DNA from: Hyphomicrobiales bacterium
Lineage (GTDB): Bacteria > Pseudomonadota > Alphaproteobacteria > Rhizobiales > Rhizobiaceae
Assembly (NCBI GenBank): GCA_900469445.1
Contig: UBXM01000004.1
Coordinates: 62,001 to 126,000 of the forward strand
DNA: 64,000 nt
Direction of reading: 5' to 3'
Shown here: positions 7,504 through 63,010 of the stretch, in pieces
How positions within the stretch are numbered: position 1 is the stretch's first letter
Layout of the letters: every line of letters begins with the position of its first letter
Position numbers and translations under genes: made by a program
Notes under the pieces: model-generated
The model's input: only the letters and a program-made list of their open reading frames with translations
Told to the model about the DNA's origin: nothing
Database searches by the model: none

Positions 7504-7908
7504 TCAGACCGCGACCGGCGGTGCGCGGGGCAGGGCACCCGGCCAATCATCCGCGGAAAACAGAGCATTCTTATGGCTCGGAGCCTTAGCCGAAGCATAG
7601 GCGTTTGCCGGAAGGGCAAAAAAACGCGGGGCGGGCAGCCCGTTGTCGATGGAGGCCTGGTTGCCTGTGCTGTCCTTGCGCTCGGCAATCGAGACGGCGC
7701 GCAGAGGGTCGCGTTTGGTCAGCGCCGGAGACCTGTCCGAGCGGTCATCCACCGGACGTGCCGATGTTGCGATGTCAGCGTTGCGCGGTGAGCCGGCGAG
7801 AAGTCCGAAGAGAGCAATCAGGAATGCGGCGGCGAGAACCGGCAGGCGCGCAAGATCGGCTTGCACGCGTCCACCCGTCTTCCGATTTCGCAGCGGGAAA
7901 ACCGCCAT
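7504..7908 (-). CDS. Hypothetical protein with N-terminal membrane anchor or signal
   Basis: About 134 residues with no recognised domain. A basic N-terminus (RNRKTGGR) is followed by one hydrophobic helix, LPVLAAAFLIALFGLLAG. The rest is a polar, Pro/Ala-rich region that would lie in the periplasm and ends in Pro-rich sequence. The ATG at 7908 has GGAGCAGG upstream; a GTG at 7914 is also in frame. It sits 79 bp upstream of secDF on the same strand and could be cotranscribed. Overlapping open frames on the other strand look like noise. Support is the start signals, a plausible anchor and its position, not homology. Confidence 0.5.
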   Translation of the reverse strand: MAVFPLRNRKTGGRVQADLARLPVLAAAFLIALFGLLAGSPRNADIATSARPVDDRSDRSPALTKRDPLRAVSIAERKDSTGNQASIDNGLPAPRFFALPANAYASAKAPSHKNALFSADDWPGALPRAPPVAV

Positions 7909-7983
7909 CCGCACCTGCTCCGGATATTAAGGCGTGTCGCGATCCTTCCGGATTCGCTCCCGACGCTTTAATCTTATTTTGCA

Positions 7984-8037
7984 GCATGTCGTTGCCGAAA
8001 ACCGGTTCACAGTTTTTCGCGACATGCTTTAGAGATT
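7984..8037. repeat. Rhizobial palindromic intergenic repeat (copy A)
   Basis: Outer stem GCATGTCG (7984-7991) with CGACATGC (8030-8037), an inner CGAAAA/TTTTCG stem and the internal ACCGGTTCAC stretch. This matches a palindrome family I know to be common between rhizobial genes. Related copies are at 30604-30648 and 47914-48013. Confidence 0.7.
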
Positions 8038-8092
8038 CGAAATTCGTTCCGAACGAGGCCGCCTTCTAAAGGAAGGGGGCTTTTCGGTCAAC

Positions 8093-8115
8093 AAAAGGGC
8101 CTCCGAAGAGGCCCT
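8093..8115 (-). terminator. Rho-independent terminator of the alpha/beta hydrolase gene
   Basis: AGGGCCTC (8096-8103), tetraloop CGAA (TTCG on the transcribed strand), GAGGCCCT (8108-8115), then a short T run on the minus strand. It starts 7 bp past the hydrolase stop. Confidence 0.85.
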
Positions 8116-8121
8116 GTCTAT

Positions 8122-8799
8122 TCAGCGGATGCGCTTGGCGGCCGGTTCCGGCACCAGTTCGCCCTGCAGGCGACGATCGAGGTAATCCTCGCATTCGCCC
8201 ATCAGCGTATCGACCTGGCCGTTGAAGAAGTGATTGGCGCCCTCGACGACCTTGTGGGTGATGAGGATGCCCTTTTGGGTCTTCAGCTTCTCGACGAGGC
8301 CGTTGACGTCCTTCTCCGGCGCGACCTTGTCGGAATCACCATTGATGATGAGGCCGGAAGACGGGCAGGGCGCGAGGAACGAAAAATCATAGATGTTCGG
8401 CTGCGGTGCAATCGACATGAAACCTTCGATTTCCGGGCGGCGCATCAGGAGCTGCATGCCGATCCAGGCGCCAAAGGAATAACCGGCGACCCAGCAGCTT
8501 TTCGAATCAGGATGCAGACCCTGGACCCAGTCGAGCGCGGAGGCGGCATCCGACAGTTCGCCGGCGCCGTGGTCGAATTCACCCTGGCTGCGGCCGATCG
8601 AACGGAAGTTGAAGCGCAGCGTCGTGAAACCGCGCTTCTGGAACATGTAGAAGAGCTGGTAGACGATCTGATTGTTCATCGTGCCACCGAACTGGGGGTG
8701 CGGATGCAGGATGATCGCGATCGGCGCACTCTTTTCCTTGGAGGGCTGGTAACGTCCTTCCAGGCGGCCGGCAGGGCCGTTGAAAATCACTTCGGGCAT
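8122..8799 (-). CDS. Alpha/beta hydrolase (CocE/NonD-like, DUF-type esterase)
   Basis: A 225-residue cytosolic alpha/beta-fold hydrolase of the short group often annotated as alpha/beta hydrolase in rhizobia. HPHPQFGGTMNN near residue 33 forms the oxyanion region. The nucleophile elbow is GYSFGA (Ser). The acid is in NGDSDKVAP (Asp) and the catalytic His is in EGANHFF. The ATG at 8799 is preferred over the ATG at 8814, since homologues normally begin MPEVIFNGPAGRLEGRY. It is divergent from the suf operon and shares that 237-bp intergenic region. The substrate is unknown; an ester or amide is likely. Confidence 0.85.
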   Translation of the reverse strand: MPEVIFNGPAGRLEGRYQPSKEKSAPIAIILHPHPQFGGTMNNQIVYQLFYMFQKRGFTTLRFNFRSIGRSQGEFDHGAGELSDAASALDWVQGLHPDSKSCWVAGYSFGAWIGMQLLMRRPEIEGFMSIAPQPNIYDFSFLAPCPSSGLIINGDSDKVAPEKDVNGLVEKLKTQKGILITHKVVEGANHFFNGQVDTLMGECEDYLDRRLQGELVPEPAAKRIR

Positions 8800-8854
8800 C
8801 GGTACTCCGGTCAATCGTTTCTGGTTCCAACTTGCGCTTGTCGTCGAGTTTGAC

Positions 8855-8883
8855 TTGACGAACGCGCTCAGCTTTTTTAGAAC
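8855..8883 (+). promoter_or_regulatory. Candidate sigma-70 type promoter of the suf operon
   Basis: TTGACG (8855-8860), 17-bp spacer, TAGAAC (8878-8883). The predicted start is near 8890, inside the Irr-like palindrome, which suits repression. An overlapping TTGACT is at 8850-8855. Confidence 0.55.
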
Positions 8884-8887
8884 TCAG

Positions 8888-8904
8888 TTTAGAACCATTC
8901 GAAA
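8888..8904. promoter_or_regulatory. Irr box (iron control element)-like palindrome
   Basis: TTTAGAA-CCA-TTCGAAA, an inverted repeat with one mismatch from the TTTAGAA-N3-TTCTAAA pattern I associate with Irr binding in Rhizobiales. A second TTTAGAAC half-site lies 12 bp upstream. A separate perfect palindrome, AGTTGA-N4-TCAACT, is at 8955-8970. Confidence 0.5.
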
Positions 8905-9036
8905 TTTGGGCATGCGACAGCAATGCCCGTTGCGAAGTCTCATAAGGCAAGCGCAGTTGAGATTTCAACTAAAATGAGGATTCTACGCCGCGCGTGGGGT
9001 TCAAATCTATCTAACGGCAAGGAAGCGCAAGCGCCA

Positions 9037-10203
9037 ATGGCTCTGCAGAGGACATATCTCGACTGGAATGCGACCGCTCCACTGTCGGAAGCGGCGCGTC
9101 TTGCGATGATCGATGCTCTCTCCTTGCCTGGAAATGCGTCCTCCGTCCATGCCGAGGGCCGGGCTGCCCGTGCCGCAGTCGAGAAAGCGCGGCGCCAGGT
9201 GGCGGTGCTTGCCGGTGCGGAGCCTGCGCATGTGACCTTTACCAGCGGCGCGACCGAGGCTTCCAGCCACGTCCTTACGCCGGATTATCGGATGGGCAGG
9301 GCTCCGGTCACGATTTCCAGGCTTTATGTCTCCGCCATCGAGCATCCGGCAATTCGAGAAGGTGGTCGCTTCGCCACAGAACAGGTTACGGAAGTGCCGG
9401 TGACGTCGGCGGGCGTCGTGGACCTTGAGGCTCTGGAGGCGCTTCTTTCGAACCATGACCAGGCATCCGGCCTGCCGATGGTGGCGGTGATGCTGGTGAA
9501 CAACGAAACGGGCATCGTCCAGCCGGTCGCGGAAGCCGCGGCTCTCGCTCATAAATATCGCGGGCTGATGGTGGTCGATGCGGTTCAGGCGGCCGGGCGG
9601 ATCGCACTCGATATCAACGCGCTGGATGCAGATTTCCTGATCCTCTCCTCGCACAAGATCGGCGGCCCGAAAGGCGTCGGCGCACTGATTTCCCGTGGCG
9701 AAGTGCTGATGCCGAAGCCGCTGATCCGCGGCGGCGGGCAGGAGAAAGGTCACCGGTCGGGGACGGAGAATTTTCACGCGATCATAGGCTTCGGCGCGGC
9801 GGCTGAAGTGATGTCTGAGGATCTGGAAAATCGCAACGGCCGAATCGGCGCGTTTCGCGATGCGCTTGAGCGGGCAATGGTACAGGCTGCTTCGGATATC
9901 GTCATCCATGGCGCGGGCGGGCCTCGGGTCGCCAATACGATCTTCTTCACATTGCCGGGACTGAAAGCCGAAACCGGGCAGATCGCCTTTGACCTTGAAG
10001 GCATTGCGCTGTCGGCGGGATCGGCCTGCTCTTCCGGCAAGGTCGGGCAAAGCCATGTTTTGACTGCCATGGGGTTGAATTCGGATATCGGCGGCCTGCG
10101 TATTTCGCTGGGGCCGGAAACGACTGAAACAGACATCGAAAGAGCCATTACGGCCTTCGGCAAAATCGCCGGTCGGCGCAAGCTGCCCGGGCAGGCCGCA
10201 TAA
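9037..10203 (+). CDS. Cysteine desulfurase, IscS/NifS-like (class V aminotransferase fold), first suf gene
   Basis: A PLP enzyme of 388 residues that removes sulfur from cysteine and passes it on as a persulfide for Fe-S assembly. The internal aldimine Lys is in SSHKIGGPKG. The catalytic Cys is in the long mobile loop SACSSGK, the group I (NifS/IscS) signature, unlike the second desulfurase at 14374. The start at 9037 has AAGGAAG about 11 nt upstream; the frame extends 38 codons further up but crosses the promoter region. It is the first gene of the suf operon. Having a group I enzyme here and a group II SufS later in the same operon is typical of rhizobia. Two enzymes may provide redundancy or different acceptors. 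Confidence 0.9.
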   Translation: MALQRTYLDWNATAPLSEAARLAMIDALSLPGNASSVHAEGRAARAAVEKARRQVAVLAGAEPAHVTFTSGATEASSHVLTPDYRMGRAPVTISRLYVSAIEHPAIREGGRFATEQVTEVPVTSAGVVDLEALEALLSNHDQASGLPMVAVMLVNNETGIVQPVAEAAALAHKYRGLMVVDAVQAAGRIALDINALDADFLILSSHKIGGPKGVGALISRGEVLMPKPLIRGGGQEKGHRSGTENFHAIIGFGAAAEVMSEDLENRNGRIGAFRDALERAMVQAASDIVIHGAGGPRVANTIFFTLPGLKAETGQIAFDLEGIALSAGSACSSGKVGQSHVLTAMGLNSDIGGLRISLGPETTETDIERAITAFGKIAGRRKLPGQAA

Positions 10204-10241
10204 GCGGCTTTTAGAATTGGCGGAAAAGCAATTTTCTGCTT

Positions 10242-10336
10242 GCCAAAAGGTGTGAAAGTCGCCTTTTGGCGCCTACATGGGGGAGACATTGTTTTCCCCG
10301 CAAGACTGACGGAATTGCCGGAATTTGAACCGGCAA
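10242..10336 (+). other. Three successive hairpins between the first desulfurase gene and sufB
   Basis: Stem 1 is GCCAAAAGG/CCTTTTGGC (10242-10270), stem 2 is GGGGA/TCCCC (10280-10299) and stem 3 is TTGCCGG/CCGGCAA (10315-10336). The last ends 16 bp before the sufB ATG. None has a U tract, so RNA processing or mRNA stability is more likely than termination. Confidence 0.45.
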
Positions 10337-10352
10337 AATTTGGAGACTGAAG

Positions 10353-11822
10353 ATGCCTGCTGTCCAGGAAACGATCGATCAGGTCCGTGGGATCGATATC
10401 GATCAGTACAAATACGGCTTCGAGACTGTGATCGAAGTGGACAAGGCTCCGAAGGGGCTTTCTGAAGATATCATCCGCTTCATCTCGGCCAAGAAGCAGG
10501 AACCGGACTGGATGCTGGAATGGCGTCTGGACGCGTATAAGCGCTGGCTGACGATGGAAGAGCCCACATGGGCCCGTGTCGAGTATCCCAAGATCGACTT
10601 CAACGACATCTACTATTATGCCGCACCGAAGAACATCACGGGTCCGGTGTCGCTGGACGAAGTCGATCCGGAACTGCTGCGCACCTATGAAAAGCTCGGT
10701 ATTCCGCTGCGCGAGCAGGAAATCCTGGCCGGCGTGCAGACATCCAAGGTTGCTGTCGATGCCGTTTTCGATTCGGTTTCGGTCGTCACCACCTTCAAGA
10801 AGGAGTTGCAGAAGGCCGGCGTGATCTTCATGTCGATCTCCGAGGCCATCCGCGAGCATCCCGAACTGATCAAGAAATATCTCGGTTCGGTCGTGCCGAC
10901 CTCCGACAACTATTATGCGACGCTGAATGCTGCCGTCTTCACCGACGGATCGTTCGTCTTCGTGCCGAAGGGCGTTCGCTGCCCGATGGAACTGTCCACC
11001 TACTTCCGTATCAACGAGAAGAACACCGGCCAGTTCGAACGCACGCTGATCATCTGTGAGGAAGGCGCCTACGTTTCCTATCTGGAAGGCTGCACGGCGC
11101 CGCAGCGCGACGAAAACCAGCTTCATGCAGCGGTCGTCGAACTCGTGGCTCTCGACGATGCCGAGATCAAGTACTCGACCGTGCAGAACTGGTTCCCGGG
11201 CGACAAGGAAGGCAAGGGCGGCATCTACAACTTCGTCACCAAGCGTGGCGACTGCCGTGGTGCGCGTTCCAAAATCTCCTGGACCCAGGTCGAGACCGGT
11301 TCGGCGATCACCTGGAAATATCCGTCCTGCATCCTGCGCGGCGATGAAAGCCAGGGCGAGTTCTATTCGATCGCGGTTTCCAACGGTCACCAGCAGATCG
11401 ATAGCGGCACCAAGATGATCCATCTCGGCAAGAACACGTCGAGCCGCATCATCTCGAAGGGCATTTCCGCCGGCGTGTCGCAGAATACCTATCGCGGCCA
11501 GGTGTCGATCAATCGCCGGGCAGAAAATGCCCGCAACTTCACCAACTGCGATTCGCTTCTCATCGGCGACAAGTGCGGTGCCCATACCGTGCCTTACATC
11601 GAGGTGAAGAACCAGTCGGCGCAGATCGAACACGAGGCGACCACCTCGAAGATCTCCGACGACCAGAAGTTCTACGCCATGCAGCGCGGCATTCCCGAAG
11701 AAGAGGCGATCGCCCTGATCGTCAACGGCTTCGTCAAGGATGTCATCCAGCAGCTGCCGATGGAATTCGCCGTCGAAGCCCAGAAGCTGATCGGCATCTC
11801 GCTTGAGGGTAGTGTGGGGTAA
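10353..11822 (+). CDS. sufB: Fe-S cluster assembly scaffold SufB
   Basis: 489 residues, full length for SufB. It forms the SufB2C or SufBC2D scaffold on which clusters are built from sulfur delivered by SufS. The conserved C-terminal block is visible: [20 protein letters not shown] with the cysteine equivalent to E. coli Cys405, then the glutamate in [11 protein letters not shown]. The beta-helix core has the usual [19 protein letters not shown]. The Shine-Dalgarno is GGAGACTGA. The stop overlaps the start of a 74-residue ORF (TAATG), suggesting translational coupling. The protein is cytosolic. Confidence 0.98.
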
Positions 11823-12046
11823 TGAACGAAAAGGTCGAGAACCTCATTCTGGAGCATCTGCGCGTTATGCGTGCCGATATCGCGTCAATCAATGACGAGA
11901 TACGCGGGATACGCAATGAAATGCGATCGATGAAACAGCATATGGCGGGGTTCATGACCCATGAGATCACCCAGGACGGAGACATTGCGGAACTGAAGCT
12001 CCGCATGGATCGCATAGAGAAGCGGCTTGAGCTGAGCGACGATTGA
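11822..12046 (+). CDS. Small coiled-coil protein encoded between sufB and sufC
   Basis: 74 residues, acidic and basic heptads throughout (VENLILEHLRVMRADIASIN, then the RNEMRSMKQHM and LKLRMDRIEKRLE regions), predicted to be an almost continuous helical coiled coil with no signal or TM segment. The start overlaps the sufB stop by one base in TAATG, so translation is probably coupled. I recognise similar short VENLILEHL proteins from rhizobial genomes but no assigned function. Its place inside the suf operon suggests a SUF accessory or adaptor role; that is inference. It is not a SufE or SufU, since it has no cysteine. Confidence 0.85.
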   Translation: MNEKVENLILEHLRVMRADIASINDEIRGIRNEMRSMKQHMAGFMTHEITQDGDIAELKLRMDRIEKRLELSDD

Positions 12047-12085
12047 GCTTGCCCGCCGCACGACGGAACATCAGAGGAAAACGAA

Positions 12086-12841
12086 ATGCTTGAGATCAAG
12101 AACCTGCACGCCCGCATCGCCGAAGATGGCACCGAGATCATTCGCGGCCTGAACCTGACCGTGAAGCCGGGCGAGATCGCCGCCATCATGGGCCCGAACG
12201 GGTCGGGCAAGTCGACATTGTCCTACATCCTGTCGGGTCGCGAGGACTATGAAGTCACCGAGGGCGACATCACCTATAACGGCGAGAGCATTCTCGAACT
12301 CGATCCGGCCGAGCGCGCCTCCAAGGGCATCTTCCTCGCCTTCCAGTATCCGGTCGAAATCCCGGGCGTCGCCACGATGCAGTTCCTCAAGGTGGCGATG
12401 AACGAGCAGCGCAAGGCGCGTGGTGAAGAAGAGCTGACGACGCCGGACTTCATGCGCCGCGTCAAGGAAGCCGCCGAAGGCCTGAAGATCGATCCGGCCA
12501 TGCTGCGCCGTCCGCTCAATGTCGGTTTCTCCGGCGGTGAAAAGAAGCGTGCCGAGATCCTGCAGATGGCGCTGCTCGAGCCGACCCTTTGCGTTCTCGA
12601 CGAAACCGATTCGGGCCTCGACATCGACGCGCTGAAGATCGTTGCCGATGGCGTCAACGCGCTGCGTTCGCCGGACCGCGCCGTGATCGTCATCACCCAC
12701 TACCAGCGCCTGCTCGACTACATCGTGCCGGATACCGTCCACGTTCTCTACAAGGGCCAGATCATCCGTTCGGGTGACAAGGAACTGGCGCAGGAACTGG
12801 AAGCGAACGGCTATGCCGACGTGATCGGGACCGCGGCCTGA
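12086..12841 (+). CDS. sufC: Fe-S cluster assembly ATPase SufC
   Basis: An ABC-type ATPase of 251 residues that drives conformational change in the SufBCD scaffold. Walker A GPNGSGKST is at residues 36-44. The Q-loop region (LAFQYPVEIPG), the signature SGGEKKR, Walker B CVLDETDSGLD and the His of VITHYQ are all present. It is cytosolic and lacks membrane segments, as expected for SufC. It lies 39 bp after the 74-residue gene and 19 bp before sufD, within one operon. The Shine-Dalgarno is AGAGGAAA. Confidence 0.98.
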   Translation: MLEIKNLHARIAEDGTEIIRGLNLTVKPGEIAAIMGPNGSGKSTLSYILSGREDYEVTEGDITYNGESILELDPAERASKGIFLAFQYPVEIPGVATMQFLKVAMNEQRKARGEEELTTPDFMRRVKEAAEGLKIDPAMLRRPLNVGFSGGEKKRAEILQMALLEPTLCVLDETDSGLDIDALKIVADGVNALRSPDRAVIVITHYQRLLDYIVPDTVHVLYKGQIIRSGDKELAQELEANGYADVIGTAA

Positions 12842-12860
12842 TACCGGGAAGGATTTTGGC

Positions 12861-14144
12861 ATGAACATCCAGACAAATCAGCCCGCGGCCAAGCTGACGG
12901 TTGCCGAAACGGCGCTCGTCGAGGCTTTCGCAGCCCAGGTCGGTGAACTGCCCGGCAACGGCGCCGTCACCGGCACCCGCGACCGGCTTCTCGACGATCT
13001 GAAAAAGGCAGGGCTTCCGACCCGCCGGATCGAATCCTGGCACTATACCGACCTGAAGAACCTGCTGCGTGCGGTGCCCGAGCGTGTCGCCGGCGCGGCG
13101 ATCGATCCGATCGGCCCGCTGGTGAAGGGATCCACGGTTCTTTCCGTCCTGCAGGGCAACGCTGATGCGACGCCCTCGATTGATGGCGTGACGATTTCGG
13201 CGTTCCGCGATCAGCTGACAGACGGTTCCGCCGTTGCGGGTCTTACCGCGCTCGACAAGGACGATGCGATCGGCCGCCTGAACGGCAGTTTCGTGCGCGA
13301 CGGCCTTGTGCTTGCCATTCCGGCAAACGCGGAGATCGAAACCCCGATCGAGCTGCAAGCGCTTCACGGCGAAGGGCAGATCCACACGCGCTTCCCGGTT
13401 TCCTTCGGCGCAGGCTCCAAGGCAACGATCGTCGAACGTCACCGGTCGGCGACCGAGGCCGCAGCGCTCGTGTCCTCGATCAGCGACATCACGCTCGAAG
13501 ATGGCGCCGAGATCACCTGGATCATCCTGCAGCAGCAGGGCCCGGCCGATACGCATCTGGCGCAGATCCGCGCCAAGCTCGGTGCGGAGGCGAAGCTTCG
13601 CCTTTACGTCGTCAATGCCGGCGGCAAGCTGGTGCGTCAGGAACTTCGCATCGAGGTTCAGGGCGAGGGGGCCGAACTGACGCTGCGCGGCGTCAACCTG
13701 CTCGGTGGCGACAGCCACACCGACGTGACGCTGGTGCTCGGCCATAATGTGCCGCATACCAACTCGACGGAAACCTTCCGCAATGTCGTGTTCGACAAGG
13801 CAAGCGGCGTCTTCCAGGGCATGATCCGGGTTGCGCCGGATGCGCAGAAGACCGACGCGAAGATGGCGTGCAACACGCTGCTGATGTCCGACGACGGCGA
13901 TTTCTCCGTCAAGCCGGAACTCGAAATCTTCGCCGACGACGTCATCTGCGGACATGGCGCCACGGTTGCCGATATCGACCGCAACCATCTCTTCTACATG
14001 ATGGCGCGCGGCGTGACCGAGAGCAAGGCGCGCGCCATGCTGGTCAACGCCTTCGTCGCCGAAATCGTCGAAGAACTGGAAGAAGAGGCGCTGGTCGAGC
14101 CGCTGGAAGAGGTGATCTCGACCTGGCTCGAAAAGCACGCCTGA
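12861..14144 (+). CDS. sufD: Fe-S cluster assembly scaffold SufD
   Basis: 427 residues, partner of SufB and SufC. The N-terminal helical domain includes the RRIESWHYTDLKNLL element typical of SufD, followed by the beta-helix core. The conserved C-terminal stretch CGHGATVADIDRNHLFYMMA carries the His used in iron entry at the SufB-SufD interface. It has the expected length and the Shine-Dalgarno sequence GGAAGGA. Its stop is followed by a 229-bp gap holding a mosaic repeat before sufS. Confidence 0.97.
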   Translation: MNIQTNQPAAKLTVAETALVEAFAAQVGELPGNGAVTGTRDRLLDDLKKAGLPTRRIESWHYTDLKNLLRAVPERVAGAAIDPIGPLVKGSTVLSVLQGNADATPSIDGVTISAFRDQLTDGSAVAGLTALDKDDAIGRLNGSFVRDGLVLAIPANAEIETPIELQALHGEGQIHTRFPVSFGAGSKATIVERHRSATEAAALVSSISDITLEDGAEITWIILQQQGPADTHLAQIRAKLGAEAKLRLYVVNAGGKLVRQELRIEVQGEGAELTLRGVNLLGGDSHTDVTLVLGHNVPHTNSTETFRNVVFDKASGVFQGMIRVAPDAQKTDAKMACNTLLMSDDGDFSVKPELEIFADDVICGHGATVADIDRNHLFYMMARGVTESKARAMLVNAFVAEIVEELEEEALVEPLEEVISTWLEKHA

Positions 14145-14179
14145 TAAAAAGATTGACGGAGGGGACGTGCCTGTCTCCT

Positions 14180-14288
14180 TCGTCATGCTCGCCCTCGGTC
14201 GGGTCTGACATGAGGATGTTTCGAGCATCTGCGACCGTTGAACCGGTTGAAACGTGATTGGATCCTCGGCACAAGGCCGAGGATGACG
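14180..14288. repeat. RIME1-like rhizobial intergenic mosaic element
   Basis: A 109-bp unit bounded by CGTCAT and ATGACG. It contains a perfect 9-bp hairpin, ATCCTCGGC/GCCGAGGAT, at its right end, a degenerate hairpin at the left end, and the central ACCGTTGAACCGGTTGAAAC. Length and layout match the rhizobium-specific RIME1 repeat (about 108 bp, two palindromes). It sits inside the suf operon between sufD and sufS. Confidence 0.75.
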
Positions 14289-14373
14289 CAGTGGACGCGG
14301 TGATGTCTGCATCTGTCCGTGACTGCAATCTCTTCGGGACTTCGCCCAGAAGCGCGATATGAAAGGGTCTGCA

Positions 14374-15618
14374 ATGGACCAGACGACACCGCTAGCCGCT
14401 TACGACGTTGAGGCCATAAGGCGGGATTTCCCGATCCTGTCGACGATGGTGCATGGCAACAAACCGCTGGTGTACCTGGATAACGGCGCTTCGGCCCAGA
14501 AGCCGCAGCAGGTGATCGATGCGATCGGCCATGCCTATTCAAGCGAATATGCCAATGTGCATCGCGGCCTTCATTTCCTTTCCAATGCCGCGACAGATGC
14601 CTATGAGGCAGCGCGTGAAAAGGTCCGCCGTTTCCTCAATGCGGGTTCGGTGGACGAGATCATCTTCACCAGCAATTCGACCTCGGCGATCAACACGGTC
14701 GCCTATGGTTACGGCATGCCGCATATCGGTGAGGGCGATGAGATCGTCATCACCATCATGGAGCACCATTCCAACATCGTGCCGTGGCATTTCATCCGCG
14801 AGCGTCAGGGCGCCAAGATCACCTGGGTGCCGGTGGATGACGATGGTGCCTTCCATATCGAGGATTTCGAAAAGGCGCTGACGGACAAGACCAAGCTCGT
14901 CGCCGTCACGCATATGTCGAATGCGCTCGGCACGGTCGTGCCGGTCAAGGATATCTGCCGCATCGCCCATGAGCGCGGCATTCCCGTCCTCGTCGACGGC
15001 AGCCAGAGCGCCGTGCATATGCCGATCGACGTGAAGGACATCGATTGCGACTGGTTCGTGATGACCGGCCACAAGCTCTATGGCCCGTCGGGGATCGGCG
15101 TGCTTTACGGCAAGACGGATCGTCTGAAGGAGATGCGGCCCTTCCAGGGCGGCGGCGAGATGATCGTCGAGGTTGCCGAGGATTTCGTCACCTATAACGA
15201 TCCGCCACATCGTTTCGAGGCCGGCACGCCGCCGATCGTGCAGGCGATCGGACTGGGATATGCGCTGGACTATATGGACAAGGTCGGACGCGCTGCGATT
15301 GCAGCTCACGAGGCCGATCTGACGGCCTACGCGACCGAGCGGCTTTCGGCGATCAACTCGCTGAGGATCATCGGCAACGCGCCCGGCAAGGGGGCGATCT
15401 TCTCCTTCGAGCTTGCCGGTATCCATGCCCATGACGTATCGATGGTGATCGACCGCCGCGGCGTTGCCGTGCGTGCCGGCACCCATTGCGCCATGCCGCT
15501 CTTGAAACGCTTTGGCGTGACATCCACATGCCGTGCATCGTTCGGCATGTATAATACCCGTGCCGAAGTCGATGCGCTGGCTGATGCGCTCGATTATGCG
15601 CGCAATTTCTTTGCCTGA
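14374..15618 (+). CDS. sufS: Cysteine desulfurase SufS (group II)
   Basis: 414 residues, PLP-dependent. It takes sulfur from cysteine to feed SufBCD, normally with help from SufE or SufU, neither of which is visible in the window. The PLP Lys is in VMTGHKLYGPSGIGVLYG. The catalytic Cys is in RAGTHCAMPLL, the short-loop group II pattern that separates it from the group I enzyme at 9037. The substrate-binding NNGASAQKP-type region is near the N-terminus (YLDNGASAQKPQ). The start at 14374 is preferred over the ATG at 14359 because GAAAGGG lies just before it. A RIME-like repeat separates it from sufD. Confidence 0.95.
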   Translation: MDQTTPLAAYDVEAIRRDFPILSTMVHGNKPLVYLDNGASAQKPQQVIDAIGHAYSSEYANVHRGLHFLSNAATDAYEAAREKVRRFLNAGSVDEIIFTSNSTSAINTVAYGYGMPHIGEGDEIVITIMEHHSNIVPWHFIRERQGAKITWVPVDDDGAFHIEDFEKALTDKTKLVAVTHMSNALGTVVPVKDICRIAHERGIPVLVDGSQSAVHMPIDVKDIDCDWFVMTGHKLYGPSGIGVLYGKTDRLKEMRPFQGGGEMIVEVAEDFVTYNDPPHRFEAGTPPIVQAIGLGYALDYMDKVGRAAIAAHEADLTAYATERLSAINSLRIIGNAPGKGAIFSFELAGIHAHDVSMVIDRRGVAVRAGTHCAMPLLKRFGVTSTCRASFGMYNTRAEVDALADALDYARNFFA

Positions 15619-15633
15619 GGATTCTTATAGGCC

Positions 15634-16008
15634 ATGGACCAAGACATACCAAAGTGGGACGCCCGCGAAGGGATCATCGAATCCGCCATTCCCGCGGACG
15701 AGCTGGAGCGCCTGTCGGATGACATCATCGCGGCGCTGAAGACCGTGTACGACCCGGAAATCCCGGCGGATATTTTCGAGCTCGGGCTGATCTACAAGAT
15801 CGACATCGAGGACGACCGGATGGTGAAGATCGCCATGACGCTGACCGCGCCCGGTTGCCCGGTTGCCGGGGAAATGCCGGGCTGGGTGGAAAATGCGGTG
15901 AGCGCGGTTCAGGGCGTATCCGGCGTCGAAGTCGAAATGACCTTCGATCCGCCATGGACGCCGGAGCGCATGTCGGAAGAAGCGCAGGTCGCGGTCGGCT
16001 GGTACTGA
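15634..16008 (+). CDS. SUF-system MIP18/DUF59 family protein (SufT-like)
   Basis: 124 residues of the MIP18 (DUF59) family, implicated in maturation of Fe-S proteins and often called SufT or YitW. The diagnostic VYDPEIPADIFELGLIY is near residue 40, and the conserved Cys lies in TLTAPGCPVAGEMP. A short N-terminal extension precedes the domain. It starts 15 bp after the sufS stop and so belongs to the same transcript. It is cytosolic, with a likely role in cluster transfer or target maturation. Confidence 0.93.
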   Translation: MDQDIPKWDAREGIIESAIPADELERLSDDIIAALKTVYDPEIPADIFELGLIYKIDIEDDRMVKIAMTLTAPGCPVAGEMPGWVENAVSAVQGVSGVEVEMTFDPPWTPERMSEEAQVAVGWY

Positions 16009-16097
16009 CCGCGGTCTTGATTGCTTAGGCTACGAAGACTAAATTGAATGTCAGAAACGCCGGGCCTTGAACCCGGTTGTGGAAGAGGAATGAGCCG

Positions 16098-16487
16098 ATG
16101 GGCTTTGCAGTGATGACCATGACCGATGCGGCGGCAGACCGCGTGAACCAGATCGTTTCCAATTCCGGTGCGGATGCCAAGGGCATACGCGTCGGGATCA
16201 AGAAGGGCGGCTGCGCCGGCATGGAATACACGATCGACCTCGTCACCGAGGCGAATGCCAAGGACGACCTGATCGAACATGGCGGTGCAAAGGTATGGAT
16301 CGAACCTTCGGCCGTGCTTTATCTTCTCGGCACCCAGATGGATTTCGAAATCACCAAGATGCGCTCGGGCTTCATCTTCGTGAACCCGAACCAGACATCG
16401 GCCTGCGGCTGCGGTGAATCGGTCGAGCTGAAGCCCGCCGATCTTGCGGCGCTCGCCAAACAGCGCGAGGCTGGCGTCAGCGCCTGA
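16098..16487 (+). CDS. sufA: A-type Fe-S carrier SufA (HesB/IscA family)
   Basis: 129 residues with the three cysteines of A-type carriers: one in KKGGCAGMEY and two in the C-terminal CGCGES. It receives clusters from SufBCD and hands them to apoproteins. I take the start at MGFAVMTMTD; the ATG at 16077 lacks better support, while GAAGAGGAA lies 8 nt before 16098. It is the last gene of the suf operon. No strong terminator follows, only a weak GCCTCAGG/CCTGGC pairing at about 16503-16530. Confidence 0.95.
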   Translation: MGFAVMTMTDAAADRVNQIVSNSGADAKGIRVGIKKGGCAGMEYTIDLVTEANAKDDLIEHGGAKVWIEPSAVLYLLGTQMDFEITKMRSGFIFVNPNQTSACGCGESVELKPADLAALAKQREAGVSA

Positions 16488-16784
16488 CGGAAGACGATTA
16501 AGCCTCAGGTTTACTATGCCTGGCCTTTAAGCGCGCTCTACTTGTATGCTTTCGTCTTTTTATTCTGGCGAGACATGTTTGTCTGATGCCAATCAGGGCA
16601 GGCAACTCTTCACACCGCTTACTCAGTCCACCGCTTAACGATGCGCGGTCATGACTTTCTTGGCACTATCCGCGAACCCAGTAACTGGGAGGCGGTGAAG
16701 GCTGAACACGTAAAATTGGATCGATCACGGTCGGCGCTGCGGTGGAATTCGGAAAGGTTTTTGTCCTCGCCGGGGGCATGACGT
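16488..16784. other. Intergenic region after the suf operon, no gene recognised
   Basis: 297 bp between sufA and a convergent lipocalin-like gene. A 46-codon open frame from about 16640 (MRGHDFLG...) lacks a ribosome site and homology. I see no RNA gene or repeat. Confidence 0.5.
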
Positions 16785-17219
16785 TCAGCCGCTTTGCGGT
16801 GCCGGCTCTCGCCGCCAGGTCACGACCGCAAACGTCGCCTCGCCCTGGCGGGGTAGGTCCAAGGGTGCGCTCGTGAGAAAAAGGCTGTCACCCGACAACT
16901 CGCAATACCTGACCTGCTCGCTCCCAACCCATGGCTCGAACCAGGCGATGTCGACGCTGGTTACGAGCCGATTGGGGGGCTCGACGCGGTAATGGCCCGA
17001 ATAGGCCAGCATGGAACGGAAGGCGGCTGCCTCATCGGCTTCGTCCGCCGGGGCTGATCGACCACCGGCCGTTATCAGCGCGAACATGCGCCCGTCTGAA
17101 CCGAAGACAACAGTTCCGGACGGCTGCTCGCCCCAGGGCCGCGTCCGCCGGCCTGTGGCGCAGTCCTCCATAAGGAAGGATTGTATGATCCATGTGCCTA
17201 CCAGATCGTCAGCGCGCAT
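16785..17219 (-). CDS. Lipocalin-like domain protein
   Basis: 144 residues matching the small cytosolic lipocalin-like family (Lipocalin_5 type). It starts with the strand LVGTWIIQSF, contains GTVVFGSDGRMFALIT, and ends with a beta-rich region and WRR. No signal peptide is seen. The function in bacteria is unknown; members may bind small hydrophobic ligands. The ATG at 17219 is favoured over the one at 17225. No neighbour shares its strand closely, so it is likely monocistronic. Confidence 0.8.
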   Translation of the reverse strand: MRADDLVGTWIIQSFLMEDCATGRRTRPWGEQPSGTVVFGSDGRMFALITAGGRSAPADEADEAAAFRSMLAYSGHYRVEPPNRLVTSVDIAWFEPWVGSEQVRYCELSGDSLFLTSAPLDLPRQGEATFAVVTWRREPAPQSG

Positions 17220-17406
17220 CCACATTCATCCTGTTCCCCGGCGCGAACCTCGACCGCCGTTCGGTCGGGTACCGGGACGCTCCCCTCAGAATGCAGGAAC
17301 GAGAGGTTCTATGCCGCCGCAATCTGCGAGCAGATAATACGCTTCGCTATCGCTCTGCTGCGCTCCGTCACCAGATGACAGCCGGCACTCGTGCAACAAG
17401 CGGTCG

Positions 17407-18293: not shown

Positions 18294-18294
18294 C

Positions 18295-53109: not shown

Positions 53110-53132
53110 ACCCGCGTCACATGGAGAAAACG

Positions 53133-53158
53133 AAAAGCCCGGCATTGCCGGGCTTTTT
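53133..53158. terminator. Bidirectional terminator between hspQ and the IMPase gene
   Basis: AAAAGCCCGGC-ATT-GCCGGGCTTTTT, a perfect stem with A/T runs on both sides, 24 bp past hspQ and 30 bp past the convergent stop. Confidence 0.9.
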
Positions 53159-53187
53159 AGTATGCGCCAATCTGGCTTCTCGACGTA

Positions 53188-54009
53188 TCAGCCGATGATT
53201 TCCCGGCGAAGGGTATTCCAGCTCTCTTCGTCGGTCGCCAGCAGCAGGCCGCCCTCGACATGGTGCGGCAGGTAGACGGAACCATCCAGCCTGCGGATGT
53301 AGCCGCCGGCTTCCGTGCCGATCAATGTCCCCGCAAGATGATCCCAAGGCATCAGCTTGTTATAAAGCGCGAACTGGACATGGCCGCTGGCGAAGGTGCG
53401 GTATTCGTGGGCCGCGCAGCGATAGCTGGCGAACAGGCGAACCTTGGCAAGATTGGCCAGGATCTGCTCCCGTTCATGGCCGTAAAAATAGCCCGCCGAC
53501 GCCATGCCGATCATGTCACCAAGCGGTTGCGGAGCAGCAACGGACAGTTTGATCGATTCGCCATCCGGACGACGCAGGAAGGCGCCTGCGCCTTTTTCGG
53601 CCATGACCCAGTCATCGCCCATCGGATCATAGATGATGCCGGCAACCGTTTCGCCCTTGTAGGTGACGGCGGCCATGACACCGAAAGCCGGAATGCCGGA
53701 GGCGAAGTTGAAGGTGCCATCGATCGGATCGACGATAACGGCCAGTTCCGCGTCAGCCAGCTTTCCAAGAAGCGACGGGTCCGCTGCGACAGATTCCTCG
53801 CCGATGAACAGGGCGCCCGGAACCACGCTGTCGATCTCCCGTCGGATCAGGCGCTCGGCTGCCTCGTCTGCCTCGGTGACCAGATCAGACGGTTCGCTCT
53901 TGGAGCGGATATCATCACCGCCAAGGCGGCGGAACCGCGGCAGTATCTCGGTCTTGGCGGCATGTTTAAGGAGTTCGGCAAGCCTGGAGACGTCGAGCGG
54001 CAAAGTCAT
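53188..54009 (-). CDS. Inositol monophosphatase family protein
   Basis: 273 residues of the IMPase/CysQ/FBPase fold. Metal and catalytic motifs: GEES near residue 70, DPIDGTFNF near 95, and PWDHLAGTLIGTEAGG near 220. It dephosphorylates inositol-1-phosphate or a related sugar phosphate (SuhB or HisN-type). The ATG at 54009 is preferred; the frame opens at 54081, which would overlap ttcA. It is 34 bp downstream of ttcA on the same strand and may be cotranscribed with it. Confidence 0.9.
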   Translation of the reverse strand: MTLPLDVSRLAELLKHAAKTEILPRFRRLGGDDIRSKSEPSDLVTEADEAAERLIRREIDSVVPGALFIGEESVAADPSLLGKLADAELAVIVDPIDGTFNFASGIPAFGVMAAVTYKGETVAGIIYDPMGDDWVMAEKGAGAFLRRPDGESIKLSVAAPQPLGDMIGMASAGYFYGHEREQILANLAKVRLFASYRCAAHEYRTFASGHVQFALYNKLMPWDHLAGTLIGTEAGGYIRRLDGSVYLPHHVEGGLLLATDEESWNTLRREIIG

Positions 54010-54043
54010 TTTGAAATCCAATCTGCGTTTGAAGATGGCAAGA

Positions 54044-54910
54044 TCAGTCGTCGGCCGAGGCCGACAGGCCGGAAAAATCAAAAAGTTTCGGGTCGAGAAG
54101 ATGAGACGGGTTCACATGGGCAAGCGCGCGCAGCATCGTATCCTTGCGGCCCGGCATGCGCGTCTCGATATCGGCAAGCATCTGCTTCATCGCGTTGCGC
54201 TGCAAACCGTCCTGCGAACCGCAGAGGTCGCAGGGGATGATCGGGAACTGCATCGCGGCTGAAAATTTGGCTAGATCGTCTTCGGCGCAATAGGCCAGAG
54301 GCCGCAGCACCATCAGGTCGCCTTCGTCATTCAGAAGCTTGGCCGGCATGCCGGCAAGGCGGCCGCCATGGAAGAAATTCATGAAGAAGGTTTCGAGAAT
54401 ATCCTCCCGGTGATGGCCGAGCACCAGCGCCTGACAGCCCTCCTCGCGTGCAACGCGGTAAAGATTGCCGCGGCGCAGCCGGGAACAGAGCGAGCAATAG
54501 GTTGCGCCCGAAGGCACCTTTTCCTTCACGATCGAATAGGTATCGCGATATTCGATACGATGTTTTACCCCGATCGAGGTCAGATAGTCCGGCAGAATAT
54601 GCTTGGGGAAATTCGGCTGACCCTGGTCGAGATTGCAGGCGATCAGTTCGACTGGCAGCAGACCGCGCCATTGCAGGTCGAGCAGGACGGCGAGCAGCGC
54701 GTAACTGTCCTTGCCACCGGAGAGGCCGACGAGCCAGCGCTGCTGGCCGTTGAGCATGCCGAAATCCTCGAAGGCTTGGCGCACCTGACGCAGCAGCCGC
54801 TTACGCAGCTTGTTGAACGAAACCGAGTTCGGCGCATCACGAAACAATGCGGGCGCAAGACCGGTCACGGCCTCGTCCATCTCATCCTCGATGACAGCGT
54901 TCAATCCCAT
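54044..54910 (-). CDS. ttcA: tRNA 2-thiocytidine(32) synthetase TtcA
   Basis: 288 residues. It thiolates C32 of certain tRNAs using a [4Fe-4S] cluster and ATP. The PP-loop is [10 protein letters not shown]. The cluster cysteines are in [12 protein letters not shown] and in [11 protein letters not shown]. Length and motifs match TtcA. It is cytosolic. It precedes the IMPase gene on the minus strand and follows alaS. It links to the suf system in the same window as a client. Confidence 0.95.
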
Positions 54911-54963
54911 GGAAAACCTCGTGCAGGACGGGCGGCCAGAAGCCGCCCGGTCATTTGTGTCAT

Positions 54964-57618
<2,655 letters not shown>

Positions 57619-57707
57619 GCTACGCCCTTTTCAACCGCCGATGCGGTACCAGTATTTGAAGTCAAAAGGCTTGTATCGTCCACATAAGCGACTGTCCAGC
57701 CGAACAG

Positions 57708-57740
57708 AAAACCGGCCGCACATCTTGCGATGGCGGCCGG
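57708..57740 (-). terminator. Rho-independent terminator of recA
   Basis: CCGGCCGC (57712-57719) pairs with GCGGCCGG (57733-57740) across a 13-nt loop, followed by TTTTCTG on the minus strand, 69 bp after the recA stop. Confidence 0.7.
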
Positions 57741-57808
57741 CGATAATAGGCAGTCACGAAATCCGAACGGGTTCCGCGAAAGCTGCGGAACCGTCCCATC
57801 CGATCACA

Positions 57809-58897
57809 TCAGCCGTCCGAGGCTTCGTCGCCGTCATTGGCGTCCGGGCCACCGTTCTGCAGGAAGCGGTCGGCGATCAGGCCGGCATTCTGGCGCAGCG
57901 ACAACTCGATTTCACGCGCGACCTCCGGGTTTTCCCGCAGGAAGGTTTTGGCGTTTTCACGACCCTGACCAAGGCGCTGGCTGTTATAGGAGAACCATGC
58001 ACCCGACTTTTCGACAATACCGGCCTTGACGCCGAGGTCGACGAGTTCGCCGGTCTTGGAGACGCCTTCACCATACATGATGTCGAATTCGACCTGCTTG
58101 AAGGGAGGCGCCATCTTGTTCTTGACGACCTTGACGCGGGTCTGGTTGCCGACGACTTCCTCGCGCTCCTTCACCTGGCCGATACGACGGATATCGAGGC
58201 GAACCGAGGCGTAAAATTTCAGCGCGTTACCGCCGGTCGTGGTTTCCGGCGAACCGAACATGACGCCGATCTTCATACGGATCTGGTTGATGAAGATGAC
58301 CATGCAGTTCGACTTGGAGATCGATGCGGTCAGCTTGCGCAGCGCCTGGCTCATCAGGCGGGCCTGGAGACCCGGCAGACTATCGCCCATCTCGCCTTCG
58401 ATTTCGGCGCGCGGCGTCAGCGCTGCAACCGAGTCGACGACCAGAACGTCGACTGCGCCGGAGCGAACCAGCGTATCGGTGATTTCCAGCGCCTGCTCAC
58501 CGGTATCCGGCTGCGAGATCAACAGGTTCTGCAGATCGACGCCGAGCTTGCGGGCATAGACCGGGTCGAGCGCATGTTCGGCGTCGACGAAGGCGCAGAT
58601 GCCACCCTTCTTCTGGGCTTCGGCGATCGTCTGCAGAGCAAGCGTCGTCTTACCCGAGCTTTCAGGACCGTAAATTTCGATGATGCGGCCCTTGGGGAGA
58701 CCGCCAATGCCGAGCGCAATATCAAGGCTGAGAGAGCCGGTCGAAACCGTCTCGATCTCAACGATATTTTCGTTCGAACCGAGCTTCATGATCGAGCCTT
58801 TGCCGAAGGATCGTTCAATCTGCGAGAGTGCCGCTTCCAGGGCCTTGCTCTTGTCCACGCCTTTTTCCTCTACGAGCCGCAATGTGTTCTGTGCCAT
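57809..58897 (-). CDS. recA: Recombinase A
   Basis: 362 residues, full length. It forms filaments on single-stranded DNA for homologous recombination and LexA cleavage. Walker [10 protein letters not shown], Walker [12 protein letters not shown], the L2-loop region and [17 protein letters not shown] are visible. The C-terminal tail is acidic. The start [13 protein letters not shown] is standard. It is induced through a LexA box 61 bp upstream. recX is not adjacent but about 25 kb away. Confidence 0.99.
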
Positions 58898-58957
58898 GAG
58901 ATCCCACCTTTAGGTTATTGCCGCCGCGCAAGCAATGAAGCAGCCGATGGGATATTC

Positions 58958-58972
58958 GTACTCATTTTGTTC
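58958..58972. promoter_or_regulatory. LexA (SOS) box upstream of recA
   Basis: GTAC-TCATTTT-GTTC, one mismatch to GTTC-N7-GTTC, 61 bp upstream of the recA start codon. Confidence 0.7.
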
Positions 58973-59135
58973 TCATTCTGCAAGAGGCATTCAACTCCTT
59001 GCATGAAAATAGCTATTTCCGATCCGTTCCACTAATGTTCACGGTCAGCGCAAGCTGTGGAAACAATAGCTGAATCGGTTCTTTTTGCCGGCAGTCAACG
59101 CTTGGCAATCAACGGGACCGGCGCAGTGCTTCCGC

Positions 59136-61748
59136 CTATTCCGAATCAAGCATTTCGCGCACAGAGACCGCCAGCTGCTTCAGCGAGAACGGCTTCGGCA
59201 GGAAGCCGAATTTGGCGTCGGCTGGCAGATTGCGGGCAAAGGCGTCCTCCGCATAACCCGAAACGAAGATGAATTTCAGGTCGGGATAGGATTTGCGCAA
59301 TTCGGTCAGAAGCGTCGGGCCGTCCATTTCGGGCATGACGACGTCGGACACGACGATGTCGACCTTGCCTTCGAGCTCGTCCATGATGTCGAGCGCCTCG
59401 GTGCCGGAACCTGCCTCATGGACGGTATAACCGCGGGTTTCAAGCATGCGCTTGCCACCGCGACGCACAGCCTCCTCGTCTTCCACCAGAAGAACGACGG
59501 CCGACTTTCCGGTGAGGTCGACCGGCTCGGCAGCGGGTGCTGCGGCGGTCGCCTCCACCTTCGGCGCGCCATTGACCGACCCTTCGATGGTAACGGGCAC
59601 CTGGGTGACAGGCTGAACTTCAGGAATATGGCGCGGCAGGAAGATGCGGAAGCTCGTGCCACTGCCGAGTTCCGATTCGGGATAGAGGTAACCGCCGGAC
59701 TGTTTTACGATGCCATAGACCATCGAGAGGCCGAGGCCGGTTCCCTTGCCTACTTCCTTGGTGGTGAAGAAAGGCTCGAAAATCTTGTCCATGATCTCCG
59801 GCGGGATGCCGGTACCGTTGTCGGACACCTCGATCATGACGAAGTCTTCTGTCGGCAGATCGGCCTGCGGGAAACCGGCCGTGTCGTCGGCCGTCACGTT
59901 GCGGGTCTTGATCAGGATCGTGCCACCGCCTGGCATCGCATCACGCGCGTTGACGCAGAGGTTGATCAGCACCTGTTCGAATTGCGACAGGTCGGTGCGG
60001 ACCGACCAGAGATCTCGGCCGTAATCCACCTCAAGCTTGACATTGGTGCCGGAAATCAGCCGGTCGACCAGCATGCGCAGGTCGCCGACAACGTCGGTCA
60101 AATTGAGAACCGCCGGACGCATCGTCTGCTTGCGCGAGAAGGCGAGCAGCTGGCGCACCAGAACGGCTGCGCGGTTGGCGTTGCGCTTGATTTCCATCAG
60201 ATCGGCGAAGCTTGCGTCCGAAGGGCGCGCCTGCAGCAGGAGGTGGTCGGAAGACAGCAGGATCGCCGTCAGCACGTTGTTGAAATCGTGGGCGATGCCG
60301 CCTGCCAGCGTGCCGACGGCATTCAGCTTCTGCGTCTGCGCCATCTGGGTTTCGAGCGCCTTCTGCTCGGTTGTCTCGACGGCATAGACGATCGCCACTT
60401 CCTCGGGCGCCTCGTCGCTCTCGTCGATCACCGCATTGACGTAGAAACGGACATAACGGTTCTCGTCACCCGGATGGCGGGTGTCGATCGGGGCGATGTC
60501 GCCCTGACGGTCCTTGGCGGCGGCAAGCGCTTCCGTCAGCGTCTCGCGGGCGCTGTCATGGACGATGCGCTCCAGCTCGGCACCACCGGCATCGACGTCG
60601 TCACGCGATACCACGCCGGCAAAGAGCCGCAGGAACGGCGCGTTGATGCGCAGGATCTTGCCTTTTCCATCCACCGAGGCGATCGCCATCGGCGTATTGT
60701 TGAAAAAGCGGGTGAAGCGCATGGCGGATGCCGACTGGTCCGCCTCGGCGCCCTTGGCGCGCATCAGCACGACGGTGCGGCTTTCGCCCGGCGCGCCATC
60801 GCGCATGGTGCTGACATTGTGCACCAGTTTTGCCGGCAGGCTCTGGCCGTTTGCCCGGCGAAGATCGAGTTCGAGCGTTTCGGTGCGCTTCAGGCCGGGT
60901 GCTGCCTGCACGGAATGAATAAGGGCCATGCCCTCGCCCGCCACCAGATCGGAAACCGTCATGGATTGCGGCGTGAATTTCGTCAGGTCGAGACCGAGCC
61001 ATTCGGCAAGCGTCGCATTGATATAGAAAATCTCGCCCTTCCTGCCAGCTGAGAAGAAGCCGACCGGGGCATGATCGAGATAATCGATGGCGTTCTGCAA
61101 TTCGCGGAAGAAACGCTCCTGGTCGTCACGTTCCGAGGTGATGTCGGTGATTTCCCAGATGTCGAGCGCATTGCGGCCGGCTGCACCAAGCAGACGGGCC
61201 TTGAGGCGATACCAATGCGCATCCGATCCGTTGCCGGTCAGGCGGCCGAGCGGCTGCAGCAGGCGGAATTCTTCGTGACCTTCCCGGCCTTCGCGCAGTG
61301 CTGCCGTCAGGCGGTAGAGAGCCTCGGTCGATTCGCGCGTCTTGGAAAGCAGCGTTTCGAGCGACTGGATATTGCGGCTGCTGGACGCGCCGGTCATGCG
61401 GCCATAGGCGGCATTGGCATAAACGATCCGGCCCTTGGCGTCGGTCACGACGATACCATCGGGATGGTTTGCGAGAAAACTGCGGGCAAGCTCGTCGGAA
61501 CGCGACTGCGGCATGACCTCGACAAGGCCGATCAGCGACGAGACGATGAAGAAAATCCCCACCATCGCCAGAATGCCGAGAAGGCCAAGAACGACCTCGT
61601 TATCCAGCGCCTGCTGGAAGACGATGAAGGCGATGGCAACGCCGAGCAGTACCATTGCCAGGAGCACGATGCGCACAACCGTGCCGCCGCGGCTGCCGCG
61701 ATCCACCAATGGCGCTTCGTCGTTGCCGGCTTTCGGCGAGCTGGTCAT
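59136..61748 (-). CDS. cckA: Hybrid histidine kinase CckA (cell-cycle phosphorelay)
   Basis: 870 residues. Two TM helices near the N-terminus ([19 protein letters not shown]; then the [17 protein letters not shown] segment), two or three PAS domains, then HisKA with the phospho-acceptor His487 in [11 protein letters not shown], an HATPase domain, and a C-terminal receiver with Asp802 in [12 protein letters not shown]. This is the CckA architecture that, through ChpT, controls CtrA in alphaproteobacteria. The start at 61748 (MTSSPKAGN) is preferred to 61799, which would prepend a Cys/Arg-rich stretch. It is inner-membrane anchored. Confidence 0.95.
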
Positions 61749-62014
61749 CAATACCTCTTGTTCCGGCGCATTGTTCCGGCGCACGCACCGGCATCGCAAA
61801 ACGCGCCCCGTAGCGTCTGCGATTCTCTCTTAGCAATTTGAAGATGAAGCAAAAAGCTCCGGAAAGCCACAAAAGGCGGGACAGTGCAGCACCCTGCCCT
61901 ATGTGAGATGCCAATGAGACACATTTTAACGTTGACGGACGACGGCAAGCCTTGCCTCCGGGGCGGAAAAATCGTCTGTGTCAGCAGGATAGATCGCATC
62001 AGGAGTTACAGAAT

Positions 62015-63010
62015 ATGGTCGGAGAACTGATGGGCGATTACGGTAGCCGCCTGCTTGTCGCGGTGATCGGCGTCGGTTTGGCCCTTGTCTGCCTTGTCGG
62101 AATCCTGTGGATAGTGCGCGGACGTCGCGGCCCTTCGCCCTTCGTGCGGGGTGGACGCAACCGCCAGCCGCGATTGCAGGTGCTGGATGCGGCCGCCGTC
62201 GATGCCCGCCGCCGCCTGGTTCTCGTCAGGCGTGACGATGTCGAGCATCTGATCATGATCGGCGGACCGACAGACGTCGTTATCGAAAGCCGGATCGCCA
62301 ATCCGGCCCACAGCACCGAGGTTCCCGTCCAGGAAAGCCATCCAGTGCAGCCGGCAGCGATCCCGGCTGCAGCAGCACCGGTTGCAGCAAGGCTTCCGGC
62401 AAGCGAGCCGTCACGGCGCCCGGCACCGGTGGCTGCGCCGCGGACGGAGGCGATCAAGGAGCCTGCGGCGGAGGTTTTCGCCCGTGAAACGCGCATCGCG
62501 GCACCACAGCCTGCCGCCGCCACTGCTGCATCCCCGGCCCCAGCGCCACGCATTGAGCCTGCCGTCGCTGCCGTGCATGCGGCCCCTGCCCGGCTGGAGC
62601 CCGTACAGCCTCAGCCGCGCGTGGAAACGCCGGCGGCGACGCAGCCGGCTCTCGACGATGCCGCACGCCTTCTCGAAAGCCAGCGTGACCGCGTCTTTGC
62701 CGAGCGCAATACGGCCGCTGCAGCGGCGCCCGTCGTGCGTCCGGCACCGCAGCCTAATCCGGTCGCGACCGAAAAGCCGACCGGTCTCGGAAGCGATTTC
62801 GAAAAGATCCTCGAGGAAGAAATGGCCAGCAACATGGCTGCGCGTGACGCCTCACTTGCCGGTCGCACCAATCGGCCGCTGCAGCAGGTTGGACCGGCGG
62901 TGGCTGTGCCTGTCGTGGCAGCGCCGGGCAGCGCCGCAAAGGACGAACCTTCCCTGCAAAGCGAGGTCGCCCGGATTTTTGGCGAGATGTCCGCAAGCCG
63001 CGACAAGTAA
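62015..63010 (+). CDS. FliO-domain membrane protein (flagellar biosynthesis FliO-like)
   Basis: 331 residues. One N-terminal TM helix (LLVAVIGVGLALVCLVGILW) is followed by a short basic stretch and a FliO/MopB-type domain: RLQVLDAAAVDARRRLVLVR then EHLIMIGGPTDVVIE. A long Ala/Pro-rich region (about 120-260) and a C-terminal segment FEKILEEEMASNMAARD follow. FliO is an export-gate chaperone for flagellar secretion; this protein is not near other flagellar genes, so the role is uncertain. The start at 62015 has AGGAG 9 nt upstream. Confidence 0.8.
   Translation: MVGELMGDYGSRLLVAVIGVGLALVCLVGILWIVRGRRGPSPFVRGGRNRQPRLQVLDAAAVDARRRLVLVRRDDVEHLIMIGGPTDVVIESRIANPAHSTEVPVQESHPVQPAAIPAAAAPVAARLPASEPSRRPAPVAAPRTEAIKEPAAEVFARETRIAAPQPAAATAASPAPAPRIEPAVAAVHAAPARLEPVQPQPRVETPAATQPALDDAARLLESQRDRVFAERNTAAAAAPVVRPAPQPNPVATEKPTGLGSDFEKILEEEMASNMAARDASLAGRTNRPLQQVGPAVAVPVVAAPGSAAKDEPSLQSEVARIFGEMSASRDK

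Follow-up and report, generated by a model that had tools for sequence, protein, structure and literature searches.

The stretch of DNA analysed here (the window) comprises 64,000 nucleotides from the draft genome of a Hyphomicrobiales bacterium of the Rhizobiaceae (6.29 Mb in 79 contigs) and corresponds to C29:62001-126000, contig C29 being 389,873 bp long. Position 1 is the first letter of the window, and C29, C48, C51, C59, C61 and C67 denote contigs of the window's own genome. At about 27.6 kb it carries a dif site flanked on both sides by copies of the octamer GGGNAGGG, the FtsK-orienting polar sequence (KOPS), and by the following features:

7528, 8363, 9294, 23491, 23877, 24719 and 26335 (span 7528..26342), plus strand: seven KOPS, by motif count
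26686..27528, plus strand: metallo-beta-lactamase-fold (MBL) gene, ending 50 bp before dif; the anchor gene used for fetching relatives
27579..27606, minus strand: dif site, XerC arm to XerD arm on this strand; 22-bp core at 27581-27602
27607..28068, no strand: 462-bp spacer separating dif from the YidB-like gene, with no recognisable insertion-sequence end in register
28069..28602, plus strand: YidB-like gene, right of dif
29450, 30722, 31964, 32159, 41923, 45433, 45554, 61892 and 62584 (span 29450..62591), minus strand: nine KOPS, by motif count

All 16 positions that the sequence-only reading had assigned to GGGNAGGG are correct and the window contains no further copies; the reversal which it placed at about 27.6 kb also holds, as seven of seven plus-strand copies lie to the left and nine of nine minus-strand copies to the right, a perfect sort that has a chance of 1/11440. 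The octamer is over-represented in the window, with 16 copies against a mean of 7.2 in dinucleotide shuffles (the largest value in 100 being 14). On the whole of C29 there are 16 forward and no reverse copies left of dif, and one forward and 58 reverse copies right of it, so that 74 of 75 point toward dif; the sole exception, C29:140162, is located outside the window. When one-N octamers with at least 40 occurrences on C29 were ranked by polarity, with the motif not assumed, GGGNAGGG came first among 20,184 (74 to 1), and GGGCAGGG taken alone gave 59 to 0.

The switch coincides with a near-palindrome, the minus strand of which reads XerC arm, a 6-bp centre (GATAGA) and XerD arm. Its 22-bp core, CGCATAAGATAGATTATGGAAC, has one exact occurrence in the genome; it is identical to the core of the dif site published for Brucella melitensis chromosome I and differs by one centre base from that of A. 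tumefaciens C58, as both are given in PMC2731167. The E. coli-type dif pattern yielded no match, and a looser palindrome pattern recovered dif and three other weak matches, one of which is the same site on the opposite strand. Relatives were fetched by the anchor gene (the best 80 of 460 confirmed), up to 10 kb of the downstream DNA was examined, and dif was called where a site with the XerD arm TTATGGAAC stood downstream of that gene; this was the case in 66 of the 80, and at these 66 loci 332 KOPS are directed toward dif and 17 away from it. The interpretation of the reversal as a terminus is thus borne out, with a 28-bp dif at the KOPS switch and a core known from Brucella, and the window almost certainly holds the dif terminus of a Rhizobiaceae main chromosome, of the FtsK/XerCD type, with KOPS converging on it along both arms.

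The corresponding genes are present elsewhere in the genome. Profile searches identified XerD above the family cut-off and a XerC-like protein just below it (316 vs 335 bits), both encoded on C59, as well as two proteins with an FtsK-gamma domain above the cut-off (L013 and L014, on contigs C22 and C41). By what is established for such systems, FtsK at the division septum would load on KOPS and move the DNA of either arm toward dif, where it would activate XerD and XerC, and chromosome dimers would be resolved. The FtsK/KOPS-XerCD/dif termini of E. coli, Vibrio cholerae, Agrobacterium and Sinorhizobium share with ours the octamer, the switch at dif, the 28-bp site, and the recombinase and translocase genes; the present system differs in the alpha-type XerD arm TTATGGAAC, in a second polar octamer, GGCGAGGG, and in a Ser in FtsK-gamma, where the two proteins have the motifs GYNRAASLIE and GYNRAASLVE, with Ser in place of the Arg of GYNRAAR(I/M)IE found in E. 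coli and P. aeruginosa. For replicons of Agrobacterium and Sinorhizobium a change of KOPS direction at dif is already in print, as the pattern of multipartite alphaproteobacteria (PMC13342612 and PMC12153318). The terminus itself is a well-known kind of landmark, of which this is one further example: the meeting point of the two chromosome arms, associated with the separation of sister chromosomes, is an ordinary landmark in a soil bacterium, and it anchors the map of the draft genome by giving the identity of the arms and the place of dimer resolution. A second dif site, with three core mismatches, stands on C61 at a KOPS switch of 19 to 1, and a third one on C48 at a switch of 12 to 1, where inserted elements contain three of the 12. 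Two repC genes, on C51 and C67, imply no fewer than two repABC replicons in addition to the chromosome, in keeping with three dif sites.

Several observations weigh against this assignment. Fourteen of the 80 relatives lack dif by the XerD-arm rule in the up to 10 kb beyond the anchor gene (L060, L063, L070, L075, L078, L083, L090, L091, L094, L096, L102, L103, L106 and L107, among them several Agrobacterium and R. leguminosarum-group genomes); inserted DNA or a relocated dif is possible at these loci. Residues N1296, R1300 and E1303 of E. coli FtsK have been reported for KOPS recognition (PMC2533119), and the R1300 position, inferred from spacing, is Ser in both FtsK-gamma domains. The contigs C61 and C48 could not be linked to the repC contigs C51 and C67, and the search for dif across the genome was non-exhaustive, so that at least three sites are counted. 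Finally, the sequence-only reading had proposed that a sign change at about 27.58 kb, in the octamer count and the cumulative GC skew of the whole chromosome, would support a terminus; on C29 the count behaved in this way, with 74 of the 75 octamers converging, and the skew agrees less clearly: it is small in size and its cumulative curve peaks at C29:102883, i.e. window position 40883, 13.3 kb right of dif. The position of this maximum would favour a polarity that is real and has its working convergence point near 40.9 kb instead of at dif, yet the minus-strand KOPS at 29450, 30722, 31964 and 32159, between dif and 40.9 kb, would then point in the wrong direction, and it is the dif core that is kept in relatives, which leaves such an arrangement a very slim chance.

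We also considered that the octamers might merely track gene direction, in a region where genes happen to switch near 27.6 kb. Plus-strand genes do lead up to dif (holB, metG, tatD and the MBL gene, with seven genes tested in all) and an alpha/beta hydrolase and an MFS gene right of it are on the minus strand; the gene orientation described by the sequence-only reading is correct to this extent and fails for the YidB-like gene, which adjoins dif and is on the plus strand. The octamer is nearly equally frequent on both strands of background open frames (62 to 57; stop-to-stop frames of 300 aa or more on three contigs), which contradicts this explanation; moreover, the polarity extends across 390 kb and to two other replicons, and the switch point coincides with dif itself. 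We therefore regard a mere reflection of gene direction as having practically no chance of being correct and retain the dif terminus.

Two side observations concern polarity. The octamer GGCGAGGG is polar in sequence, 42 to 0 on C29, 8 to 0 on C61, 12 to 3 on C48 and 204 to 7 in relatives L032-L111, with 10 to 1, 11 to 4 and 1 to 1 on the three replicons of one relative (G138), and is a candidate signal for reading by FtsK. Right of dif, at C29:230000-300000, the skew becomes positive again for about 70 kb with the KOPS direction unchanged, perhaps owing to acquired DNA or a local inversion.

The DNA past the XerC arm, aligned for the 66 dif sites of the relatives and scored for five end types derived from the same loci, contains an insertion-sequence (IS) end in a fixed register in 46 cases, with scores of at least 14, compared with at most 11 in 3000 random places. 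Twenty-seven of these ends belong to IS1202/ISNCY elements (types A and B) and 19 to IS30 elements (types C, D and E), i.e. to two unrelated families that stand at two distances from the XerC arm, 5 bp for IS1202/ISNCY and 13-14 bp for the IS30 clade; three of the remaining 20 relatives have contigs that end too early for a call. In the Rhizobiaceae, elements of two IS families land beside dif, on its XerC side. In 27 of the 66 relatives the contig breaks off no more than 500 bp beyond dif, which a repeated element at that place would lead one to expect, and such elements would account for the frequent assembly breaks at the terminus in Rhizobiaceae drafts. The window's own dif is outside the 46 and has no recognisable insertion: the spacer 27607..28068 scores 6 against the threshold of 14, yet has TGT at +5, and is partly unmatched among the 80 relatives. 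A minus-strand frame of 40 aa beside the window dif was considered as the tail of an IS1202 transposase and rejected, having no supporting match among the relatives and a stop codon 9 bp from TGT, which is incompatible with the right end of an IS1202 element.

Placement of IS1202 elements beside dif is already known from Acinetobacter. The rhizobial types A and B encode a large ISNCY transposase (489-500 bits vs NF033594, cut-off 250), have TGT/ACA ends, begin 5 bp from the XerC arm and read away from dif. We sampled 30 IS1202 loci from 247 genomes of the host family, 26 of them usable, and called a dif-like site where at least 16 of the 22 arm letters agreed, a value above the maximum of 15 reached in random 260-bp stretches (n=3000). 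Such a site is present upstream of 18 of the 26 copies; of the other eight, four are located behind another element (L176, L182, L183 and L188), L198 is at a contig edge, and L177, L187 and L199 have weaker sites in register. Copies with both ends resolved show an exact 5-bp duplication (L076, L181, L185 and L196, and by reading also the copy on C48). In distance, orientation and 5-bp duplications these elements match the ISAjo2 subgroup of IS1202 described by Harmer et al. 2023 (PMC10132070), who regarded the sites of ISRel10, ISRel26, ISMex6 and ISBcen27 as no more than loosely pdif-like; by the alpha consensus, in contrast, many rhizobial IS1202 targets are plain dif, including the chromosomal dif at the KOPS switch.

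The IS30 elements were studied in the same 247 genomes, 89 of which had a match; 50 copies were examined (30 loci and 20 chosen from the list), 8 of them 5'-incomplete or without upstream DNA. Two of two transposases tested are members of IS30 by profile (271-283 bits vs NF033563, cut-off 80). With the L095 transposase as reference, 26 copies show an identity of at least 43%, and upstream of 17 of these lies a dif-like site, always in the same orientation (17/17) and 78-82 bp from the transposase start in 15 of them (182 bp in L142, 55 bp in L149), with the element starting 13 bp after the XerC arm in 10 copies and 14 bp in 7. Seven of the remaining nine are directly behind an IS1202 right end, one stands in register with a weak site (14), and L153 has none. 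By contrast, none of the 16 host-family copies below 41% identity to L095 (five from one genome) has a dif-like site upstream, so that the clade differs from other IS30 elements in its fixed spacing and single orientation; downstream, no such site was found for any of 52 copies of either family. Of 551 matching plasmid records 10 were opened, and seven have the site at 78-79 bp, L211 retains the XerC arm only, L208 is behind an IS1202 and L206 is without a site. In the IS30 tree, all copies seen beside dif fall into one 26-row group (support 86/87, below the tool's star), which includes L182_359 (the first element of the C48 stack described below) and L188_1037 (the same copy as L126), both with dif; the 12 rows outside this group are all without dif and seven tree rows are unlabelled. 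A left end at +5, shared with IS1202, was rejected for IS30, as L123, L203, L204, L210 and L211 have no TGTAG there and the conserved part starts at +13/+14; the TGTAG that precedes the left end in other copies is probably left over from an older IS1202. Right ends were matched poorly by the automatic search, and reading of L209 and L212 suggests a CC or CCG duplication. We found no description of IS30 beside dif in open-access papers, which is not proof of absence from print; the IS30 mentions in PMC12907356 are unrelated.

The window's own genome has such elements in a stack on the XerC side of the C48 dif:

C48:107661-111.5 kb, all reading away from dif: three elements head to tail (L112, L114-L116 to L122)

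The order is dif, ATATG, IS30 (type E), IS1202 (type B), ATATG, IS30 (type C), the repeated ATATG being the 5-bp duplication of IS1202. The stack holds the only two IS30 matches in the genome, both over the cut-off, and the one over-cut-off match of two to the IS1202 profile. In the relative G138 (three contigs), the dif of each replicon is located at a KOPS switch (33 to 5, 23 to 2 and 12 to 0 in the stretches fetched) and is adjoined by elements of the IS1202/IS30 families on every replicon.

It could be argued that these are old insertions inherited with the chromosome rather than products of repeated targeting, and TGT at +5 in 45 of 67 rows, the window included, may partly be an ancestral scar. 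The type A ends of L037, L044, L057, L084 and L093 are, however, 96-100% identical over 119-300 bp beside a neighbouring gene only 72-79% identical, which indicates recent and separate insertions (those of L066 and L079 are more diverged); related genomes carry different element types at dif, and copies are also found at dif-like sites of plasmids and on all three replicons of G138. Inheritance alone is thus unlikely, and repeated targeting is preferred.

Distance, side and orientation are fixed in both transposase families. All targets in the chosen sets share the XerD-arm letters GTTCCATAA, an invariance that is partly built in since the sets were chosen by similarity to dif; the outer XerC arm is variable. 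The transposase may be guided by XerC bound to its arm or by the XerCD-dif complex, a mechanism that Harmer et al. put forward for ISAjo2 (PMC10132070). The elements also carry KOPS: in 54 non-redundant transposase genes 51 are in the permissive and none in the non-permissive orientation, compared with the 62 to 57 of the background frames. These 51 cluster at a few conserved positions and hence do not represent 51 events, so that the cargo supports upkeep and not many origins; a control IS30 set, small with 12 representatives, gave 0 to 0. A codon-level test of selection for KOPS inside the elements is suggestive for IS1202: 17 of 22 representatives have the octamer at one site, and among 13 Pro columns the one at this site shows the strongest third-base bias, with CCC in 91%. 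For IS30 the signal is weaker, with the octamer in 11 of 22 representatives and absent from most copies nearest L095. Taken together, we lean, by a narrow balance of probability, toward a model in which the IS30 clade, unrelated to IS1202 with its 5-bp ruler, homes to dif with a 13-14 bp ruler and reads away from it, both families perhaps being guided by XerC and forming stacks on each replicon, and in which KOPS that point to dif because the orientation is fixed would keep FtsK transport intact and render the insertion harmless. If this is true, transposons from two unrelated families have in the dif complex a place where they can insert safely, and it offers two natural rulers for asking how a transposase finds XerC-bound DNA.

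Elements of another kind may also use dif. In Neorhizobium tomejilense (L048:10886-17335) an element of 6.4 kb stands between dif and a second copy of the XerC arm and centre, and its genes have matches to phage replication initiation families and weak ones to major head and endolysin families. It has the appearance of a prophage, probably of the small single-stranded-DNA type, that XerCD integrated at dif.

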